NCBI GenBank assembly: GCA_029778235.1
Contig: JAKOQS010000350.1
Location: 1-64,000, forward strand
DNA length: 64,000 bases
Origin: Chloroflexota bacterium
GTDB taxonomy: Bacteria; Chloroflexota; Limnocylindria; Limnocylindrales; CSP1-4
Direction: 5' to 3'
Shown: positions 3,375 to 51,042 of the stretch, in pieces
Layout: every line of letters starts with the position of its first letter
How positions within the stretch are numbered: the first letter of the stretch is position 1
Position numbers and translations under genes: made by a program
The notes under the pieces: generated by a model
The model's database searches: none
What the model was told of the DNA's origin: nothing
What the model saw: the letters and a program-made list of their open reading frames with translations, nothing else

Positions 3375-5504
3375 TCAGCGGGCGGCGGGGTCGCCCGCGA
3401 GGCCGAGACCGGGGAACGGCTCCAGCAGGCCGAGCTCGATCGCGCGTTCCACCGCCTCGCTGCGGCTGGACGCATCGAGCTTGGCGTAGATGGATCGCGC
3501 CTGCGTCTTCACGGTGTGCGTGGAGACGTCGAGCCGCTCGGCGATCTCCTCGAAGCGGAGGTGCGTGGAGAGGATCGGGAGCAGGCGCAGCTCCGCCGGC
3601 GTCAGGGTGGACGAGCCGGCGAGCGCGCGCGACGCCGCACCGAGGCGCTCGCGCATCTCCACGAGCGCAGCGTCGAGGATCCCCAGGCCCGGGCGGAGGC
3701 GGGCGATCTCCACGGCCTCATGGAGCGCGGTCCGGGCGCCGGCCGGATCCGACACCGCGAGGTACGCGCGGGCCACCTCGAGAAGCGCCATGACCGAGAA
3801 CCACGGTGCCGCCGGGGAGGCGAGCGGGCGGACGAGCTGAGCGTGCACGAGCTCGGCGCGCGCGCGGGCGACGTCCCCGCGGCGGATCGCCACGCGAGCC
3901 GCGACCGCGTATGTGGGCAGCGCGGCCACGATGTCCCCGAAGCGCGCCCGCTCGAGGACGGCGTACGAGCGGCGCGCGAGATCCTCGGCCGTGCGCCAGT
4001 CCGCACGGGCGATCGCGAGGGCGGCCAGGCAGGCGAGCGCGACCATCGCGGTCGCATGGGCGCCGCCGGCATCCGCGACGGCCTCCTCCAGCGTCGCGCG
4101 GGCGGCGGGGATGTCGCCCGCGAGGAGGTGCGCGCTGCCCAGGAGCCAGAGGGCGTTCACGTGCCAGGGGCTGGCCGGGCCTTCCTGGGCGGCGGCGAAG
4201 GCCGCGTCGGCGAGCACGCCGTCCGCGCCGCCCGCGCCCATGACGGCCCGGAGCATCGCCTTGCCGGACGCATAGGACGCCGTTCCATCGCCGGGTGGGC
4301 CGTCGAACGACGCGTGCTCGGCGATCGCGGCCATCCGCTCCGCCGCGTCCGGCCGTCCGTTGAGGAGGTGGACCCACGCCGCGATGACGGCGAGCTGCGG
4401 CCGGCGGACGAAGGCGTCGTCGTCGAGGGCGCCGAGCCACCGGTCCAGGGTGTCGCCGTGCCCGCCGTAGAACGTGGGGAGCGCGACCGCGGCGATCAGC
4501 GCGGCGGCCGCGTCGGCGTCGCCGGAGCGCAGGGCATGCTCGACCGCCAGCTCGGGTCGTCCGGCCGCAAGGTACCAGGCCGACACGCGCGCATGAAGGA
4601 TGGCGGCGGCACCCGGCTCCCGACGATCGAGCTCGGCCTCGAGGAACTCGCGGAGCAGGTTGTGGTAGCGGTAGGTCGGCGCCGCACCTCCCGCCCGCAC
4701 CACGAGCTGGACCGACCCGGCGAGCCGCTCGAGGCGGCCAGCCGCGCCGGGGACGTCGGAGATCGCCTCGGCGACGGGGGGCTCCACGACCTCGAGGACC
4801 GACGTGCGGGTGAGGAACGTGGCGTCATCCGCGCCGACGACGTCCCAGAGCTCGGAACGCAGGTACTCGGCGACGTATCCCTCGCGGCCGGAGACGGCCG
4901 TGGCCGTCAGTGCGACGTCGTCGGGCGTGCTCGCCACGAGCGTGGCGAGGTACACGCCCGCCGCCCACCCCTCGGTGCGGTCGGCGAGCGACCGGACGTC
5001 AGAGCGCGTCATCGGCCGGCCGGCCGCCGCGACCAGGGCCGCGGTCTCGTCGAGGTCGAGCGCGAGGTCCGCGCTCTGGAGCTCCAGGAGGTCACGCTGG
5101 GCCCGGAGGCGGGCGAACGGCAGGTCCGGCCGGGTCCGTCCGGCCATCGCGACCTGGACGTGCGGGGGCAGGTACTCGAGCAGTGTCGCCAGCGCGTCGA
5201 GGCAGTCGCGGTCGGCGAGTCGGTGGACGTCGTCCAGGACGAGGAGCGTCGGCCGCGGCAGCCGATGCAGCTCACGTGCCAGGCGAGGCACGGCCGTGGA
5301 CAGCGCGCGGGGGCCCCGCGCGACCGCCGCGAGGGTCGTCGAGTCCACCGGCTCGATCCGGTCGATCATGGCGGCCAGGTAGGTGAACAGGACCGTGGGG
5401 ACATTGTCGAAGTCGTCGAGCGTGAGCCAGCCGACCGCGCGGCCCGCGTGGACATCTGCATCCGCCAGCAGGATGGTCTTGCCGTACCCCGGGGGCGCGA
5501 ACAC
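3375..5504 (-). CDS. LuxR-family ATP-dependent (MalT/LAL-type) transcriptional regulator; N-terminus extends upstream in frame without a standard start codon
   Basis: Walker [20 protein letters not shown]-terminal Lux[47 protein letters not shown]. Confidence 0.85.
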
Positions 5505-5833
5505 GGCGACGACCGGAGGCCGCGGCTCTGCCGAGAGTCGCCGGGCGAGCCTCGGGCGCGCGATCAGGCCCGGGCGCGGCGCCGGCGGGTCGAGCTTGGC
5601 CTCGACGAGCGGGAAGTCCGCCTGGAACCGCGGCCGTCCCGAGCCGGCCTGCGGCCGGTCCGTCGGTTCCGTCGCGCGATCTCGGCCGACGCCGTCGGTC
5701 CCCGTGGCGAGCCCTCCCCCGCTGCGCGGCCGGACCCTCGGTCGGCCGTGGCAAGGTCAGAACCTACCACCCCGCATGCGGATCATGCAGCGGCGGCTCG
5801 GGCCGGGCCGGGAAACGGGCCGGGAGCCGCGCG

Positions 5834-6187
5834 TCAGGGATCGGCGCGGTCGAGGTCCGCCTCGACGTCGTACCCGGCCGCCAGCGCGATGCGGGGGGCA
5901 GCGGAGGTGACGCGCGCGGAGCCCACCTGCCCGGCGACGGCCGCCAGGACCGCGACCAGGTCGTCGAGCGACGCGCCCGCGCGGATCGCCGCGTCAACGA
6001 CGGTGCGGAAGCTCGACTCGGGGGCGTCGAGCGCGATCAGGGCAGCGACCCGCAGCAGGCTCTCCGTGCGGACGTCGAGGCGCACCGGGACCGCCGCGTC
6101 GGAGTCCGGCGATGCGACGGCGGCGAGCGTCCGCGGCTCGCCGATCGTCAGGCGGCGGAAGAGCTCCTCGGCAGTCACCGCGGTCAT
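5834..6187 (-). CDS. Carboxymuconolactone decarboxylase / AhpD-like family protein
   Basis: 117 aa MTAVTAEELFRRL...TESLLRVAALIALDAPESSFRTVVDAAIRAGASLDDLVAVLAAVAGQVG; SD-like gagggagtcc upstream of ATG. Confidence 0.6.
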   Translation of the reverse strand: MTAVTAEELFRRLTIGEPRTLAAVASPDSDAAVPVRLDVRTESLLRVAALIALDAPESSFRTVVDAAIRAGASLDDLVAVLAAVAGQVGSARVTSAAPRIALAAGYDVEADLDRADP

Positions 6188-6423
6188 CAGGACTCCCTCG
6201 CGCGAAGGAGCCCGCGGACGCGGGGCACCTTCATCTGTGCATTGGACCCGGGGGGCGATCCCGCCCGCATCAGCCGTTCGGAGCGATGCCCGGCCCGGCA
6301 GCCGGGCGCACAGTGCGGTCGCGCATGCACGCGGGACCGGCCGTGCCCGGCCCGGTCGGCGGCCGCGGGCCGCCCGATCCCCCGACCACGATCCACCACG
6401 GCTGCCACGAAGGGAGCGAGACG

Positions 6424-9333
6424 ATGGCTGAGGCCACGACGAACGTCCTCGTCGCCGGCTACCAGGACGCCGAGCTGGCGGCCCGGGAGTTCGACGGGCT
6501 CCTCGAGCTCGTGCGGACGAAGGCCGTTCGGATCGAGGGTGCCATCCTCGTCGCCCACAAGGCCGACGGCGACGTCGTCGTCCAGCGGACGGGCGACCAC
6601 CTGGGCAGGACCGGCGCCAAGTGGGGTGGCGCCGTCGGGTTCCTGGTCGGCCTGGCCGCACCCCCGCTCCTCGCCGCCACGGTGGTCGGCGCCGCGGCCG
6701 GCGGGGTCCTCGGGAAGGTCGCCGGGCACAAGGTCGAGACCGGCCTGCACGACACGCTCGGCGAGGCACTGAAGCCGGGGACCGCGGCGGTCATCGCGAT
6801 GTTCGACGCCGACCAGCGGCTCGCGGTCGAGCAGGCGCTCGCAGGCTCGCCCGCGAAGTCGGTCGTCGAGTCCGACAAGACGGGGACCGCCGCGCTCAGG
6901 GATTCCCTCGCGGAGGCGATGGGCAAGTTCCAGCAGCCCCGCACGCACCTCCCGATCCCCGACCGGACCTTCGGCGGCGTGGCGAGGCGGACGCTCAGGG
7001 ACTCCGTCGCGGACTGGCTCATGATCCCCGGCCCCAAGGCCCCGGAGGGCGCCCCCAACGTCCTCCTCGTGATCATCGACGATGCCGGGTACGGCGCACC
7101 CGACACGTTCGGGGGCCCGGTCCGCACGCCGGCGTTCACGCGCATCGGGCAGACGGGCCTCACGTACAACCGCTTCCACGTGACCGCCGTCTGCTCCCCG
7201 ACCCGCGCGGCGCTCCTGACCGGGCGCAACCAGCACCGGGTCGGCTTCGGGTCGATCGCCGAGTACCCCGGGCCGTTCCCCGGCTACACCGCGAGCAAGC
7301 CGAAGAGCTGCGCAGGGCTTCCGCGCATCCTCAAGGAGAACGGCTACGTCACCGGCGGCTTCGGCAAATGGCACCTCACGCCGGACAACGTGCAGGGCGC
7401 GGCCGGGCCGTTCGACCACTGGCCCAAGTCGTGGGGCTTCGACCACTGGTGGGGCTTCCTCTCCGGGGCCGCGGGCCAGTACGACCCGATCATCACGCAG
7501 GACGACTGGGTCCAGGGCGTCCCCGAGGGGACCGACGGGAAGCCCTACTACTTCCCCGACGACATCACGGACAAGTCGATCGACTGGCTCAAGCGCGTGC
7601 GCGCGCAGGATCCCGACAAGCCGTGGTTCCTCTTCTACTCGACCGGATGCGCCCACGCGCCGCACCACGTCCCGAAGGAGTGGGCGGACCGGTATCGGGG
7701 CGTGTTCGACGATGGCTGGGACGCGCTGCGCGAGCGGACGCTCGCCCGCCAGAAGGAGCTCGGCATCGTCCCGCAGGACGCCGAGCTCACGCCCCGGCCG
7801 GACGCCTTCCCGGCGTGGGACTCCCTCGACGAGGCGTCGAAGCAGCTCTACGTCCGCCAGGCCGAGGTCTACGCCGGCTACCAGGAGAACGCCGACTGGA
7901 ACGTCGGGCGCCTCCTCGACGCGGTGGACGAGCTCGGCGACCTCGAGGACACCCTCGTCATCTACATCTGGGGCGACAACGGCGCGAGCCTCGAGGGGAC
8001 GATCACCGGCTCGTTCAATGAGACGACCTTCCTCAACGGGATCGTGCTCGACCCTGCGCACCAGCTCCAGCTCATCGACGAGTACGGCGGGATCGAGGCC
8101 CTGGGCGGCGACCACACGGCCCCGCACATCGCGGCGGCGTGGGCGCACGCGTTCAACACGCCGTTCCAGTGGGGCAAGCAGACCGCCAGCCATCTCGGCG
8201 GCACGCGCGACCCGATGGTCGTCGCGTGGCCGAGCCGGGTCAAGGCCGACGCGGCCCCGCGGAGCCAGTTCACGCACGTCATCGACGTGGGGCCCACGAT
8301 CCTCGAGGCAGCCGGCATCCCCGAGCCCGAGACGGTGGACGGGATCGCCCAGGAGCCGATGGACGGGACCAGCTTCCTCTACACGTTCGACGACGGGGCG
8401 GCGGCGGAACGCCACACGACACAGTACTTCGAGATGTTCGCGAGCCGCGCCATGTACAAGGACGGCTGGTGGGCCGCGTCGCGGCCGGACCGCCTGCCGT
8501 GGGACCTCTCGCCGGCCTCCGTCGCGCGGTTCGGGCCGGACGCCGACTGGGACGCGGACCGCGACGTGGGCTGGGAGCTCTACGACCTCACGACGGACTT
8601 CACGCAGGCGCACGACGTGGCTGCGCAGCACCCGGAGAAGGTCAGGGAGCTCCAGGAGCTGTGGTGGCGAGAGGCGGAGCGGAACCGCGTCCTCCCGCTC
8701 ATGGCCGGCTTCGCGGTGCTCTTCGGGATGCTCCCGCCGCTGCCGACGCAGACGCGCTTCCCCATCGCGGGCGGCGTGGACAACATCCAGCGCGGGATGG
8801 TGCCGCGCATCTACGGCCGGTCCTACGCGATCGAGGCCGACCTCCGCGTGCCCGACGGCGGGGCCGAGGGCGTCATCGTCGCCTTCGCCGACTTCATCGG
8901 CGGGTTCGGCCTGTGGGTGGACGAGAAGGGCCTGCTGACGCACACCTACTCGCTCCTCGGCGTCGAGACCTACCGACAGACCGCCGCGACCCCCATCCCG
9001 ACCGGCGACGTCAGCGTCCGCATGCTCTTCGAGTCCACGGAGCAGAAGCCCGGCAGCGGCGGCCACGTCACGCTCTTCGTGAACGACGAGAAGGTCGGCG
9101 AGGGCGACATGCCCCGCACCGTCCCGATCGCCTTCACGACCTACTCGGGCCTGGACGTCGGCCGCGACAACGGCCTTGTCGTCGACCTGGCGTACGAGGA
9201 CCGGGCGCCGTACGCGTTCACCGGCACCGTGAAGCAGGTCGTCTTCGACCTGCACCCGGCGGGGCACGAGGACGAGGTCGAGCTCCACGCCCACGCTGCG
9301 CTCCAGTCGGTCGCGGCCGGCGCGGCCGGCTGA
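6424..9333 (+). CDS. Arylsulfatase with N-terminal DUF1269-like glycine-zipper domain
   Basis: Sulfatase signature CSPTRAALLTGR (Cys-type), VLLVIIDDAGYG, GKWHLTPD; N-terminal about 170 aa with GGAVGFLVGLAAPPLLAATVVGAAAGGVLGKVAG. Confidence 0.9.
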   Translation: MAEATTNVLVAGYQDAELAAREFDGLLELVRTKAVRIEGAILVAHKADGDVVVQRTGDHLGRTGAKWGGAVGFLVGLAAPPLLAATVVGAAAGGVLGKVAGHKVETGLHDTLGEALKPGTAAVIAMFDADQRLAVEQALAGSPAKSVVESDKTGTAALRDSLAEAMGKFQQPRTHLPIPDRTFGGVARRTLRDSVADWLMIPGPKAPEGAPNVLLVIIDDAGYGAPDTFGGPVRTPAFTRIGQTGLTYNRFHVTAVCSPTRAALLTGRNQHRVGFGSIAEYPGPFPGYTASKPKSCAGLPRILKENGYVTGGFGKWHLTPDNVQGAAGPFDHWPKSWGFDHWWGFLSGAAGQYDPIITQDDWVQGVPEGTDGKPYYFPDDITDKSIDWLKRVRAQDPDKPWFLFYSTGCAHAPHHVPKEWADRYRGVFDDGWDALRERTLARQKELGIVPQDAELTPRPDAFPAWDSLDEASKQLYVRQAEVYAGYQENADWNVGRLLDAVDELGDLEDTLVIYIWGDNGASLEGTITGSFNETTFLNGIVLDPAHQLQLIDEYGGIEALGGDHTAPHIAAAWAHAFNTPFQWGKQTASHLGGTRDPMVVAWPSRVKADAAPRSQFTHVIDVGPTILEAAGIPEPETVDGIAQEPMDGTSFLYTFDDGAAAERHTTQYFEMFASRAMYKDGWWAASRPDRLPWDLSPASVARFGPDADWDADRDVGWELYDLTTDFTQAHDVAAQHPEKVRELQELWWREAERNRVLPLMAGFAVLFGMLPPLPTQTRFPIAGGVDNIQRGMVPRIYGRSYAIEADLRVPDGGAEGVIVAFADFIGGFGLWVDEKGLLTHTYSLLGVETYRQTAATPIPTGDVSVRMLFESTEQKPGSGGHVTLFVNDEKVGEGDMPRTVPIAFTTYSGLDVGRDNGLVVDLAYEDRAPYAFTGTVKQVVFDLHPAGHEDEVELHAHAALQSVAAGAAG

Positions 9334-45539: not shown

Positions 45540-46649
45540 ATGACGAGGATCGTCAAGGGGATCCCGCGGGGGGCGTCGATCGTCGCGCTGGCGGCGGTCG
45601 CCCTGCTGCTCGTGGCAGCCTGCGGGACGGGTGTCTCGGTGCTCCAGCCGCCGCCCGCGGCGACGGAGCAGGGCAAGGCGACCGAGTGGCTGTACCAGGT
45701 CGTCTTCATCGTCGCCGTCGTGGTCTTCTTCCTGGTCGAGGGCCTGATCGTCTACGCCGCGGTCCGATACCGCCGGCGCAAGGGCGACGAGTCTCTCCCG
45801 CCCCAGATCCACGGGAACAACGTCCTCGAGGTCATCTGGACGGCGATCCCGGTGGCGATCGTCGCGATCCTCTTCGTCATCTCGTGGCAGACGCTCAACA
45901 CCGTGGACGCCGTGTCGGCGAAGCCGAACCTGCGGATCGACGTCACGGGCTTCCAGTGGCAGTGGCAGTTCACCTACCCCGAGCAGGGCATCACGCTCAT
46001 CGGCCTGCCCGACAAGGAGCCCGAGCTGGTCGTGCCGGTGGACGAGACCGTGCAGGTCAAGCTCGAGAGCCGGGACGTCAACCACGGCTTCTACGTGCCG
46101 GCGTTCCTCTTCAAGCGGGACGTCATCCCCGGCAAGACGAACGTCTTCGACTTCAAGGCGACAGAGACGGGGACCTTCGACGGGCACTGCACGCAGTTCT
46201 GCGGCCTGCTGCACTCGAAGATGCTGTTCAAGGTCCGCGTGGTCACGCGCGCCGAGTTCGACGCCTGGGTGGCCGGCGCCAAGGCCACGCCCACGCCGGC
46301 GCCGTCGGCCACCGCGGCGCCGTCAGCGAGCGCCGGGACCGGCGGCGGGGGCGGGAGCGGACAGCCCGTGGCGCTGCAGCTGACCGCCCAGAACATCGCG
46401 TACGACAAGTCGGAGCTGACCGCCCCCGCGAACACCCCGATCCAGCTGACGTTCGTGAACAACGACAACGGCATCCCGCACGACGTGGCGATCCGCAAGG
46501 GCTCGCCCACCGGGGAGGACGTGTTCACGGGCGAGATCTTCCCCGGCGTCGCCACCAAGGTCTACGACGTCCCGGCGCTCCCGGCCGGCACGTACGCGTT
46601 CGTGTGCACGGTGCACCCGAACATGACCGGCACGCTGACGGTCCAGTAA
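45540..46649 (+). CDS. ctaC: Cytochrome c oxidase subunit II with additional C-terminal type-1 cupredoxin domain
   Basis: CuA motif GHCTQFCGLLHSKM; Gly/Ala linker; second cupredoxin GIPHDV...CTVHPNM. Confidence 0.92.
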   Translation: MTRIVKGIPRGASIVALAAVALLLVAACGTGVSVLQPPPAATEQGKATEWLYQVVFIVAVVVFFLVEGLIVYAAVRYRRRKGDESLPPQIHGNNVLEVIWTAIPVAIVAILFVISWQTLNTVDAVSAKPNLRIDVTGFQWQWQFTYPEQGITLIGLPDKEPELVVPVDETVQVKLESRDVNHGFYVPAFLFKRDVIPGKTNVFDFKATETGTFDGHCTQFCGLLHSKMLFKVRVVTRAEFDAWVAGAKATPTPAPSATAAPSASAGTGGGGGSGQPVALQLTAQNIAYDKSELTAPANTPIQLTFVNNDNGIPHDVAIRKGSPTGEDVFTGEIFPGVATKVYDVPALPAGTYAFVCTVHPNMTGTLTVQ

Positions 46650-46658
46650 GGAGCGACG

Positions 46659-48290
46659 ATGGCGACCACCGTCCTCACGCCGAGCACCGCCCGCGCCCGC
46701 TCCGGGCTGTACGACTGGCTGACGACCACCGACCACAAGAAGATCGGGATCCTCTACCTCGGGAGCTCGTTCGCCTTCTTCCTCGTCGGCGGGGTCCTGG
46801 CGCTGCTCGTCCGTGCCGAGCTCGCGCAGCCCGGCCTCCAGTACATGGGCGAGTCCGCCTACAACCAGTTCTTCACGATGCACGCGTCGGTGATGCTCTT
46901 CCTCTTCGTCATCCCGATGCTGGCCGGGTTCGGCAACTACGTCGTGCCCCTGATGATCGGCGCGCCGGACATGGCCTTCCCGCGCATCAACGCGCTGAGC
47001 TTCTGGCTGCTCCCCCTCGCCGGCATCATCATGATGCTCGGCTTCGTGCTCGGCGGGGCCGCGGCGGAGGGCTGGACCAGCTACAGCCCCCTCGCCAACT
47101 CCAAGTACTCGCCCGGCGTGGGCACCGACCTGTGGATCGTGGGCCTGATCCTGATCGGGACCAGCTCGATCCTCGGCGGCATCAACTTCCTGGTGACGAT
47201 CTTCAAGATGCGCGCGCCGGGGATGACGATGTTCCGCCTGCCGATCCTCGTCTGGACGGTGCTCGTGACGAGCGTCCTCGTGGTCCTGGGCACCCCGGTG
47301 CTCACGAGCGCGCTGATCATGCTGTTCATCGACCGCAACTACGGCGGCGCGTTCTTCGACCCGGCGAGCGGCGGCAGCGCGGTGCTCTGGCAGAACGTGT
47401 TCTGGTTCTACTCGCACCCGGCCGTCTACATCATGATCCTGCCCGCGATGGGGATCGTCAGCGAGATCATCCCGGTCTTCAGCCGCAAGCCGCTCTTCGG
47501 CTACAAGGCGTTCGTCTTCGCGACCGCGGCGATCGGCGCCCTCGGATTCTCCGTCTGGGCGCACCACATGTTCACGACCGGGTCGGTCTACCTGCCGTTC
47601 TTCAGCTTCATGACCTTCCTGATCGCGGTGCCGACCGGCGTGAAGATGTTCAACTGGATCGCGACCATGTGGAAGGGGAGCATCCAGTTCTCGTCGGCGA
47701 TGCTGTTCGTCCTCGGCTTCCTGACGATGTTCCTCATCGGCGGCATCAACGGCGCCTTCAGCGCGTCGGTCCCGGTGGACTTCGCCATCCACGACACCTA
47801 CTGGATCGTGGCGCACATCCACTACGTGCTCTTCGGCGGATCGGTCTTCGCGGTCTTCGGCGGGCTCTTCTACTGGTTCCCGAAGATGTTCGGCGTCAAG
47901 CTCAACGAGACGCTCGGCAAGATCCAGTTCGTGATCATGTTCATCGGGTTCAACCTGACGTTCTTCCCGATGCACGAACTGGGCATCGCCGGGATGCCGC
48001 GCCGCATCGCGGACTACAGCCCCATGGCCGGCTGGAACGACCTGAACCTGCTCGCGACGATCGGCAGCCTCCTGGTGGCCGTCTCCGTGCTCCCGTTCCT
48101 GTGGAACGTCTTCGTGTCGCTCCGCAGCGGCGAGCGCGTCGGCGACGACCCGTGGGAGGGGAACACGCTCGAGTGGGCGACCACCAGCCCGCCGCCGCCG
48201 TACAACTTCGACCGGCTGCCCGAGATCCGCTCCGAGCGGCCGGTGTTCGACCAGCGCCACGGGCTCTCGGGCTCGGCGGCCGGCCACTGA
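46659..48290 (+). CDS. ctaD: Cytochrome c oxidase subunit I
   Basis: YDWLTTTDHKKIGILYL, WFYSHPAVYIMILPAMG, WAHHMFTTG, HDTYWIVAHIHYVLFGG. Confidence 0.97.
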   Translation: MATTVLTPSTARARSGLYDWLTTTDHKKIGILYLGSSFAFFLVGGVLALLVRAELAQPGLQYMGESAYNQFFTMHASVMLFLFVIPMLAGFGNYVVPLMIGAPDMAFPRINALSFWLLPLAGIIMMLGFVLGGAAAEGWTSYSPLANSKYSPGVGTDLWIVGLILIGTSSILGGINFLVTIFKMRAPGMTMFRLPILVWTVLVTSVLVVLGTPVLTSALIMLFIDRNYGGAFFDPASGGSAVLWQNVFWFYSHPAVYIMILPAMGIVSEIIPVFSRKPLFGYKAFVFATAAIGALGFSVWAHHMFTTGSVYLPFFSFMTFLIAVPTGVKMFNWIATMWKGSIQFSSAMLFVLGFLTMFLIGGINGAFSASVPVDFAIHDTYWIVAHIHYVLFGGSVFAVFGGLFYWFPKMFGVKLNETLGKIQFVIMFIGFNLTFFPMHELGIAGMPRRIADYSPMAGWNDLNLLATIGSLLVAVSVLPFLWNVFVSLRSGERVGDDPWEGNTLEWATTSPPPPYNFDRLPEIRSERPVFDQRHGLSGSAAGH

Positions 48291-48306: not shown

Positions 48307-48951
48307 ATGACCGCCAGCGCCGACGTCCTCGTCCCCGCCGACCGAGGCGAGACGCTCGAGGAGCTCGTCCACATCGCGGAGGAGCACTCCAAGGGCGGGA
48401 TCAGCAACCCCGTCCTGGGGATGATCCTGTTCATCGCCTCGGAGGTGATGTTCTTCGCGGGGCTCTTCGCGGCCTACTTCAGCCTCCGCTCCAACGCGCC
48501 CGTGTGGCCCCCGACCGGGAACCCCGAGTTCGACCTCCGCGCGCACATCGCGCTGCCGGCCGTGCTCACGCTCATGCTCATCACGAGCTCCATCACGTGC
48601 CAGATCGGGATCTGGGCCATCCGGCGGGGCGACCGGAAGGGCCTGATGCGCGCCTTCACGATCACGATCGTCCTCGGGATCCTCTTCCTCGCGGGCCAGC
48701 TGTACGACTACTCGCAGCTGGGCTTCGGGGTGAACGACGGCGTCTTCGGGTCCACCTTCTACACGCTCACCGGCTTCCACGGCGCCCACGTCTTCGCCGG
48801 GGTGCTGATGCTCGGCGTCATCCTCTACCGCGGCGCGGCCGGCCAGTTCTCCGGGCGTCACCACGATGCCGTCGAGGCGACGAGCCTCTACTGGCACTTC
48901 GTGGACGTGGTCTGGATCTGCCTGTTCACCCTCCTGTACATCCTCAACTAG
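48307..48951 (+). CDS. ctaE: Cytochrome c oxidase subunit III
   Basis: IASEVMFFAGLFAAYF, TGFHGAHVFAGV, YWHFVDVVWICLFTLLYI. Confidence 0.95.
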   Translation: MTASADVLVPADRGETLEELVHIAEEHSKGGISNPVLGMILFIASEVMFFAGLFAAYFSLRSNAPVWPPTGNPEFDLRAHIALPAVLTLMLITSSITCQIGIWAIRRGDRKGLMRAFTITIVLGILFLAGQLYDYSQLGFGVNDGVFGSTFYTLTGFHGAHVFAGVLMLGVILYRGAAGQFSGRHHDAVEATSLYWHFVDVVWICLFTLLYILN

Positions 48952-48968: not shown

Positions 48969-49136
48969 GTGATCCGACCTCGCACCACGCTCCTCGTCGC
49001 GGTCCTCTTCCTCGCGGTCGCGGCGGTCTACTACGCCCTCAGCCAGGACGCGGGCGGCACGACGATGCTGGTCGCGCTGGCCATCGGGATGGGCCTGCTT
49101 TCGTATACCCTCGCGCTGGGCTCGCCGAAGGGCTGA
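48969..49136 (+). CDS. Short two-TM protein in the subunit IV position of the cox operon
   Basis: VIRPRTTLLVAVLFLAVAAVYYALSQDAGGTTMLVALAIGMGLLSYTLALGSPKG; GTG start. Confidence 0.5.
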   Translation: MIRPRTTLLVAVLFLAVAAVYYALSQDAGGTTMLVALAIGMGLLSYTLALGSPKG

Positions 49137-49200: not shown

Positions 49201-50436
49201 ATGACCGATCTCTGGAACACGATCGTCAACGACTACCTCGGGCGGCTGGTCTCGCCCGACTGGGGCGCGCTCGTGGGCCTCATCCCGGTCGCGCTGCTTG
49301 GTGTCGTGGCGCTCTACGTCGGCTGGATCCTGGTGCGGTTCGCCACGGCGGGGCCCCGCACGCGGGGCGGCCCGGTCGTGCCGCGCACGCCGGCCGGCGT
49401 GCACATGCCGGGCCCCAGCCTCTCGCCGCTCTACCTGGCGGCCGCGGCGACGGTGCTGTTCCTCGGGCTCGCGGCGATGAACGCGGACCCCACGATCCTC
49501 GTGCTCGGCGCGATCCCGCTCCGCGACATCGGGCCGTGGATCTTCGCCCTCGGCGTCCTCCTGACGATCGGCGCCGGCCTCTACTGGGGCCGCGAGGTGA
49601 TGCGCGAGTCCGGTCGCCCGGCCGGCCGGGGCGTCGTCGCCGGCGCATTCGACGCGCGACGGCCGCCGGAAGGCGTCCACGTCCCCGGGCCGTCCTTCCG
49701 CCCGGTGCTCATCGCCGTGGCGGCCACGGTGCTGTTCCTCGGGCTCGGCCTCTCGACGAACCAGCAGATCGTCAAGGACCACGGCGACGTGGGGCTGCCC
49801 ATCCTCCTCGCCGGGCTCGTGATGATCGCGATCGTGGGGCTCCAGTGGCTGCGCGACGCCGTCGTGGAGTACCGGCTCGCCGTCAAGGCGGACCGGACCG
49901 GCCACCTGGAGAACCCGCCCGCTCCGCACTTCCCGTGGGTCACGCTCGGCTTCTTCGCGCTGCTGTTCGTCGGCGCGGTCCTGGTGGGCACCGGCACGCT
50001 GCCGCCCAGCTCGGGTGGCGGCACGGCGGGCGGCGGCGCCGCCCCCACGTCGGCACCGGGCGGCGGGGGCACGGCGGCGACGTCCGCGCCGGCCGCGACG
50101 CCTGCCGGATCGGGCGCCGCCACCTCGGCGCCGGGTGGCGGAACACCGTCGGGTCCGGTGATCAAGATCGTCGCGCAGAACATCGCGTTCGACGTCTCGG
50201 AGATCACGGCACCAGCGGACACCGCGTTCACGATCTCGTTCGACAACCAGGACGCGGGGATCCCGCACAACGTGGCGATCCACAAGGACTCGCCGACGGG
50301 CGACGTGGTCTTCATGGGCGAGATCATCACCGGCGTCGCGCAGAAGGACTACGCTGTCCCGGCCCTCCCGGCCGGCACCTACGCCTTCGTCTGCACGGTG
50401 CACCCGAACATGGTCGGGACGCTCACCGTCCAGTAA
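49201..50436 (+). CDS. Membrane protein with internal duplicated module and C-terminal type-1 cupredoxin domain
   Basis: Repeats TPAGVHMPGPSLSPLYLAAAATVLFLGLA / [30 protein letters not shown]-terminal AQNIAFDVSEITAP...GIPHNV...CTVHPNM. Confidence 0.8.
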   Translation: MTDLWNTIVNDYLGRLVSPDWGALVGLIPVALLGVVALYVGWILVRFATAGPRTRGGPVVPRTPAGVHMPGPSLSPLYLAAAATVLFLGLAAMNADPTILVLGAIPLRDIGPWIFALGVLLTIGAGLYWGREVMRESGRPAGRGVVAGAFDARRPPEGVHVPGPSFRPVLIAVAATVLFLGLGLSTNQQIVKDHGDVGLPILLAGLVMIAIVGLQWLRDAVVEYRLAVKADRTGHLENPPAPHFPWVTLGFFALLFVGAVLVGTGTLPPSSGGGTAGGGAAPTSAPGGGGTAATSAPAATPAGSGAATSAPGGGTPSGPVIKIVAQNIAFDVSEITAPADTAFTISFDNQDAGIPHNVAIHKDSPTGDVVFMGEIITGVAQKDYAVPALPAGTYAFVCTVHPNMVGTLTVQ

Positions 50437-50451: not shown

Positions 50452-51038
50452 GTGCTCCTCCGCCGCTCCCCGGTCGCGGGCCTGCGCGGCCGTTCCGCCG
50501 CCGTCGGCTCGATCGCCCTCGTCGCCGCCGTCCTCCTCGGCGCGTGCTCCGGCCCGAGTGGCTCGGCGCCCGCGGGGACCTCACCCGCGGGGTCGATGCC
50601 CGCATCGAGCGTCGCCGTCGGGCCGGAGGTGGGCGCGCTCGCGCCGGACCTCGTCCTCACGGACCTCGACGGGAAGCCGTTCCGCCTCTCCGACCTGCGC
50701 GGGCGGCCGGTCGTGCTCAACTACTGGGCATCGTGGTGCGGACCGTGCCGCGATGAGTTCCCCGAGCTGAAGGCCGCGCTCGAGGCGCACGGGACAGCCG
50801 CGCTGGCGGTCGTCGGCGTCCTCTTCAAGGACGATCCCGGGCCCGCCCGGGACTTCATGGCGAAGGAGGGAGCCACCTGGACCTCGCTCGCCGACCCCGA
50901 CGGCACGGGTGCCGCGGCATACCGCGTCGTCGCCCCGCCGACCACCTTCTTCATCGACGCGGAGGGCGTGGTCCGCGACATGCAGATCGGCGGGATGACG
51001 GGCGAGCAGCTCGACCGCCACCTCGAGACGATCCTGCG

Positions 51039-51042
<4 letters not shown>
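50452..51042 (+). CDS. TlpA/ResA-like thiol-disulfide oxidoreductase lipoprotein
   Basis: Lipobox VLLGACSG; WASWCGPCRDEFPELKAAL. Confidence 0.9.

Follow-up and report, generated by a model that had tools for sequence, protein, structure and literature searches.

A predicted CtaF-derived subunit with a doubled helix pair and a cupredoxin domain in the cytochrome c oxidase operon of Limnocylindrales

What does a membrane protein that joins two copies of a helical module to a copper domain contribute to a respiratory oxidase? The question is raised by an open reading frame (ORF) of a Chloroflexota bacterium from the order Limnocylindrales (49201-50436, + strand, ATG start, 411 amino acids; positions refer to the window, i.e., the 64,000-nucleotide stretch of contig JAKOQS010000350.1 that was analyzed). 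The gene lies within the series ctaC-ctaD-ctaE-small ORF-ORF 49201-50436-tlpA-like gene-ABC pair. We consider it likely that this gene encodes a CtaF-derived subunit of an aa3 (A-type) cytochrome c oxidase, with both a structural role and one in electron transfer. A first-pass annotation of the sequence had guessed at a duplicated accessory oxidase subunit bearing its own copper domain, a guess that the present data support and to which they add a second cupredoxin on CtaC. In the open full-text literature we found neither a description of this architecture nor a studied member of the family.

The genes from ctaC to the TlpA/ResA-like gene are all located on the + strand. Subunit II, encoded by ctaC (45540-46649), matches PF02790, PF00116, and PF13473 and scores above the TIGR02866 cut-off; its COX2 transmembrane (TM) part and CuA domain precede a cupredoxin at the C-terminus (about 46350-46646). 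Subunit I is encoded by ctaD (46659-48290; PF00115, E 2.5e-162; above the TIGR02891 cut-off). The product of ctaE (48307-48951), subunit III, is short: its PF00510 match covers only positions 77-255 of the 258-position profile, and positions 1-76, which correspond to helices I-II, are absent. The ORF under study is thus encoded together with ctaC, ctaD, and a ctaE that lacks the first two helices, as in a CtaF-type context. The small ORF that precedes it (48969-49136) encodes two TM segments in 55 amino acids when counted from GTG, a start that is inferred. Downstream, a TlpA/ResA-like thiol-disulfide protein (50452-51042; PF00578, E 1.7e-26, and synteny) is a likely helper in the maturation of CuA or cytochrome c.

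An AlphaFold2 model built from 50 relatives (mean pLDDT 79, pTM 0.49) contains helices at residues 21-49, 75-93, 107-138, 167-186, 198-233, and 246-264. Its linker is disordered, and the cupredoxin reaches a pLDDT of ~97. Read from the N-terminus, the protein begins with TM1 and its PDWGxLIxLIP anchor (residues 21-49, 49261-49347), in which P19 and W21 are invariant in 50/50 relatives. Profiles and repeat alignment then delimit module 1, consisting of a GVHMPGPSxxP motif with TM2 and TM3 (residues 62-140, 49384-49620), and module 2, consisting of GVHVPGPSFRP with TM4 and TM5 (residues 154-225, 49660-49875). TM6, identified from the model and from hydropathy (residues 246-264, 49936-49992), leads into a low-complexity Gly/Ala/Pro/Ser/Thr linker and the cupredoxin domain (residues 320-411, 50158-50433; PF13473). 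The earlier reading of two TM pairs therefore holds, with two further helices (21-49 and 246-264) bringing the count to six. The most consistent topology would place both GVHxPGPS motifs in the cytoplasm and the cupredoxin outside; charges favor this orientation weakly, the loop preceding TM6 containing no Lys or Arg.

Both helix-pair modules share the motif H-x-P-x-P-S-x2-P, and the repeats occupy residues 62-91 and 154-183. They had been described as preceding each TM pair; the repeats are real, but their FLGL part lies inside the first helix of the pair. Aligned with BLOSUM62, modules 1 and 2 of the window protein score 126, a value reached by 0/5000 shuffled controls (mean 27.3, sd 5.3, maximum 59), which rules out a repeat arising by chance. 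When profiles of the two modules were compared across 23 genomes of the order, they matched with 99.6% probability (E 6e-25). In each module, the core His and Pro residues are invariant in 50/50 full-length relatives. The duplication and its fusion to a cupredoxin in the cox operon, both proposed in the first-pass annotation, are thereby confirmed.

The identity of the module becomes apparent only from relatives. The window protein's N-terminus on its own has no significant match in Pfam, NCBIfam, PHROG, or PDB, and an NCBIfam scan of 48 relatives returned nothing consistent. Among weak matches, Prestin, Frizzled, and Trp_oprn_chp fit no context and were rejected, as was the subunit IV family COX4_pro (PF03626), which had no match in Pfam scans of the protein and its relatives. 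A module-only profile searched against PDB, by contrast, retrieved COX3 helices I-II (1m56_C, E 5.6e-8; bovine 1v54_C, 1.2e-5; many further COX3 chains around 1e-5). It also retrieved the COX3 part of the Thermus caa3 I+III fusion (2yev_A 543-600, 4e-6), the C-terminus of QoxB from aa3-600 (2e-5), and, weakly, residues 93-129 of CtaF (7q21_F, E 0.027). In these COX3, QoxB, and Thermus proteins the homologous helix pair occurs once, within COX3 or at the end of COX1, whereas here it occurs twice on a separate chain. Foldseek searches with the N-terminal model placed COX3 chains in the first twelve positions (best E 5.6e-3), a result that adds little beyond sequence because the global superposition is poor (TM ~0.2; ~0.23).

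The Pfam family of CtaF, PF12270 (Cyt_c_ox_IV), was matched at E <= 1 by 24/25 order members scanned (best 6e-10). Several of these exceed the curated cut-off (e.g., L026 with 38.2 bits versus 26.9), and most matches cover profile positions ~76-125 of 132, i.e., the C-terminal half of CtaF. No PF12270 match was found for the window protein or elsewhere in its genome, and its putative assignment to this family rests on relatives and profiles. The resemblance to CtaF originally noticed by eye is borne out by these matches, but for one half of CtaF only, the half equivalent to COX3 helices I-II. By homology, the module represents COX3 helices I-II, the pair that also makes up the second half of CtaF in actinobacteria. 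No unrelated transporter or enzyme family, the outcome that the first-pass annotation had named as refuting its guess, competes with COX3 and CtaF. In Mycobacterium smegmatis, CtaE and CtaF together correspond to COX3, with helices 1-2 supplied by CtaF (PMC8361435). Since the CtaE of the window lacks helices I-II and the module represents that very pair, the two parts are complementary.

Where, then, is the other half of CtaF? The 55-amino-acid ORF has no Pfam match by itself and is conserved directly upstream of the six-TM subunit gene among loci of the order. A profile of its homologues has a modest best PDB match to residues 8-51 of CtaF (8hcr_H, E 0.0023), and we regard it as probably the N-terminal half of a split CtaF. 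In the window the two halves thus lie on separate chains (48969-49136 and 49201-50436). Among order members they are fused only in a small-genome family (Aquidulcis-type, freshwater), in which a single gene after ctaE combines the small ORF, one module, a TM segment, and a cupredoxin (L193:4456-5307 and L194:2433-3275); in the L194 protein, PF12270 spans profile positions 17-126 of 132. This family also keeps the two-module form elsewhere in the genome, beside the bc operon. That orthologue does not adjoin ctaD and lies between the bc operon and a gene that, by eye, reads as caa3 CtaG-type. In G009, a relative without the duplicated form, a full-length PF12270 protein is encoded right after COX1 (G009:C59:15686-16042); a Rieske/cytochrome b pair lies upstream of COX1 at this locus (G009/L195). 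From the fused genes of the small-genome family and the full-length CtaF of G009 we conclude that CtaF was probably split and that its second half was doubled and equipped with a type-1 copper domain in most of the order. Compared with actinobacterial CtaF, the system retains the C-half helix pair, the position after ctaE, the five-helix CtaE partner, and, in the upstream small ORF, probably the N-half; it differs in comprising two genes, in the duplication of the second half, in an extra TM segment at each end, and in the fused periplasmic cupredoxin. To our knowledge, CtaF itself contains no metal site.

A search across the order matched 86/126 genomes at E <= 0.001, and 77 were left after dropping those judged to match by the N-terminal anchor alone. 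Matches of residues ~3-77 elsewhere were rejected as orthologues, as this anchor is shared with a zinc-ribbon protein. The latter is a 160-amino-acid protein conserved in the order (L032:3243-3722; G000:C279:23242-23721), whose first helix carries a PDWGALxxLIP anchor like that of the six-TM subunit, with a zinc ribbon and then a PPGPPxGGAA tail behind it; it adjoins a gene read by eye as CcsA-like. Genome-contig records name the relatives, nearly all of them metagenome-assembled genomes (MAGs), as Chloroflexi, Candidatus Limnocylindrales, or Candidatus Aquidulcis, and the few listed under other names are taken to be mislabelled MAGs. No relative out of 50 lacks either module or any of the four copper ligands, which rules out an artifact of a mis-assembled MAG. 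Across loci of the order, the gene is usually flanked upstream by ctaC-ctaD-ctaE-small ORF and downstream by tlpA and the ABC pair. The architecture had been called novel; the duplication and the cupredoxin stand, but they are conserved throughout the order and are no peculiarity of this genome.

In a tree of 112 modules, the copies sort by position, with 2 changes for module 1 and 4 for module 2 as compared to about 37 after shuffling. This separation across the order excludes a recent duplication and is explained most simply by a single event that preceded the radiation of the order. The layout of two modules and a cupredoxin is ancestral to the order and common to its uncultured Chloroflexota. 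In genomes of another family of the phylum (f69), a different protein has two modules and no cupredoxin, and its copies are each other's closest relatives, pointing to an independent duplication. Proteins of this type carry a soluble N-terminal domain ahead of the modules (L127:3586-4782, L128:4734-5900, L139:2835-3974). Elsewhere in the phylum, the same HxPxPSxxP helix pair occurs as a single module without a cupredoxin, either as subunits of 70-117 amino acids or at the C-terminus of CtaD (L129-L138). The first COX3 helix pair thus proves to be a part that can be moved and duplicated: it sits within COX3 itself, closes the COX1 chain, forms half of CtaF, stands by itself, and here appears twice on a chain with a copper domain.

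The C-terminal ~92 residues of the subunit match the cupredoxin family PF13473 above its cut-off (E 8.9e-12). H356, C398, H401, and M404, a full His-Cys-His-Met set, are invariant in 50/50 relatives and lie within a cupredoxin fold, so that sequence and model agree with a type-1 (blue) copper site. The best fold match of the model is auracyanin. Fold and ligands are shared with auracyanin and amicyanin/plastocyanin-type cupredoxins, which are separate soluble or membrane-anchored carriers, whereas the domain here is part of a predicted oxidase subunit. The idea of tethering a donor domain to the oxidase is also realized in caa3-type enzymes, in which cytochrome c is fused to subunit II; here, both CtaC and the subunit-IV-like protein carry a putative blue-copper donor, and CtaC has no CXXCH heme c motif. 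The sole match in the window genome to the single-domain cytochrome c models PF00034 and PF13442 is a TM-cytochrome c-cupredoxin fusion, in an assembly that is 91% complete with 7.8% contamination and in which the absence of a soluble cytochrome c therefore cannot be proven. This fusion (G000:C340) is encoded in an operon with cytochrome b, in two parts, and a Rieske protein. It was found in 88/126 genomes; by raw counts, uncorrected for relatedness, 72 genomes have both the subunit and the bc fusion and 33 have neither. Both are also missing from a sampled genus without COX1 (0/7).

We propose that CtaE acts as a five-helix subunit III whose missing helices I-II are supplied by modules of the six-TM subunit, with the 55-amino-acid product as the other half of CtaF beside it. 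One module would probably fill the canonical COX3 helix I-II site next to subunit I, where, like COX3, it may stabilize subunit I and the entrance of the D-pathway. The second would be an additional copy that lies either peripherally or where the oxidase meets the bc complex. TM6 is predicted to exit to the periplasm, from where the flexible linker would hold a type-1 copper cupredoxin close to CuA. In this scheme, the cytochrome c-cupredoxin fusion of the bc complex probably gives up electrons by cupredoxin docking; subunit IV and CtaC would receive them on their copper domains and deliver them to CuA. Linkage of a helix pair to a cupredoxin does not by itself demonstrate electron transfer.

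The copper domain could instead serve assembly, delivering copper for CuA or CuB insertion while the modules merely dock on nascent subunit I. Such a factor would suit the tlpA-like gene that comes next in most loci, and also the small-genome family, in which the gene is apart from ctaD and beside the caa3 CtaG-type gene, as judged by eye, and a tlpA-like gene. We nevertheless consider this role unlikely, as the domain retains a complete set of electron-transfer ligands with the His, Cys, His, and Met residues invariant in all 50 relatives, and both CtaC and the cytochrome c of the bc operon carry closely similar cupredoxins. The copper motif of Sco is CxxxC. The ligands observed here resemble neither that motif nor the H(M)X10MX21HXM of PCuAC (PMC9145763). 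Slightly less probable still is a protein that acts mainly as a supercomplex linker, in which TM1 and the additional module would bind the bc complex, leaving the copper domain a secondary role. Two helix-pair copies where one fits, the proximity of the gene to the bc operon in the small-genome family, and the complex III contact mediated by CtaE and CtaF in M. smegmatis (PMC8361435) all speak for it, while copper ligands conserved as strictly as the modules speak against copper being secondary; the two roles are compatible, and the protein may both link complexes and serve as an oxidase subunit. An unrelated membrane protein, such as a transporter or an anchor, that carries a cupredoxin and lies in the cox operon by chance, a reading that draws on the lack of significant family matches for the N-terminus, is very improbable and largely refuted by the relatives' profiles, which convincingly match only COX3 helices I-II and Cyt_c_ox_IV, and by the conserved linkage to ctaE in most loci.

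If the protein is an oxidase subunit, a cupredoxin relay from the bc complex via subunit IV and CtaC to CuA would, as proposed, need no soluble cytochrome c. More tentatively, and with less than even confidence, we suggest that tethered blue-copper domains, located on the cytochrome c of the bc operon, on CtaC, and on the split, duplicated CtaF, connect the bc complex with the aa3 oxidase without free cytochrome c, and that these domains are interchangeable and have taken each other's place repeatedly. In uncultured Chloroflexota of soil and freshwater, one would then expect respiration to rely on cupredoxins tethered at both complexes in place of a mobile cytochrome c. Type-1 ligands are present in 110/110 CtaC, subunit-IV, and bc cupredoxins checked. 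As the cupredoxin tree comprises only 94 columns, we relied on AU tests instead of individual branches: the cupredoxins of subunit IV do not form one clade (p 0.002), nor do those of CtaC (p 0.001), and for the bc domain a single clade is not clearly rejected (p 0.08). Domains that do not sort by protein suggest copying or conversion between oxidase subunits, and the phylogeny indicates that cupredoxins have moved between proteins within the order.

Further cupredoxins were observed in the course of the analysis. A probable lipoprotein (L154:1725-2261) carries one that is very close to that of the window subunit, and the window contains a weak cupredoxin-like match, below cut-off, in a long open frame (505-753, - strand). 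A bc-operon protein that combines a TM segment, cytochrome c, and a cupredoxin (L152:6567-7625, - strand) is followed by a kelch-repeat-like membrane protein (5057-6493).
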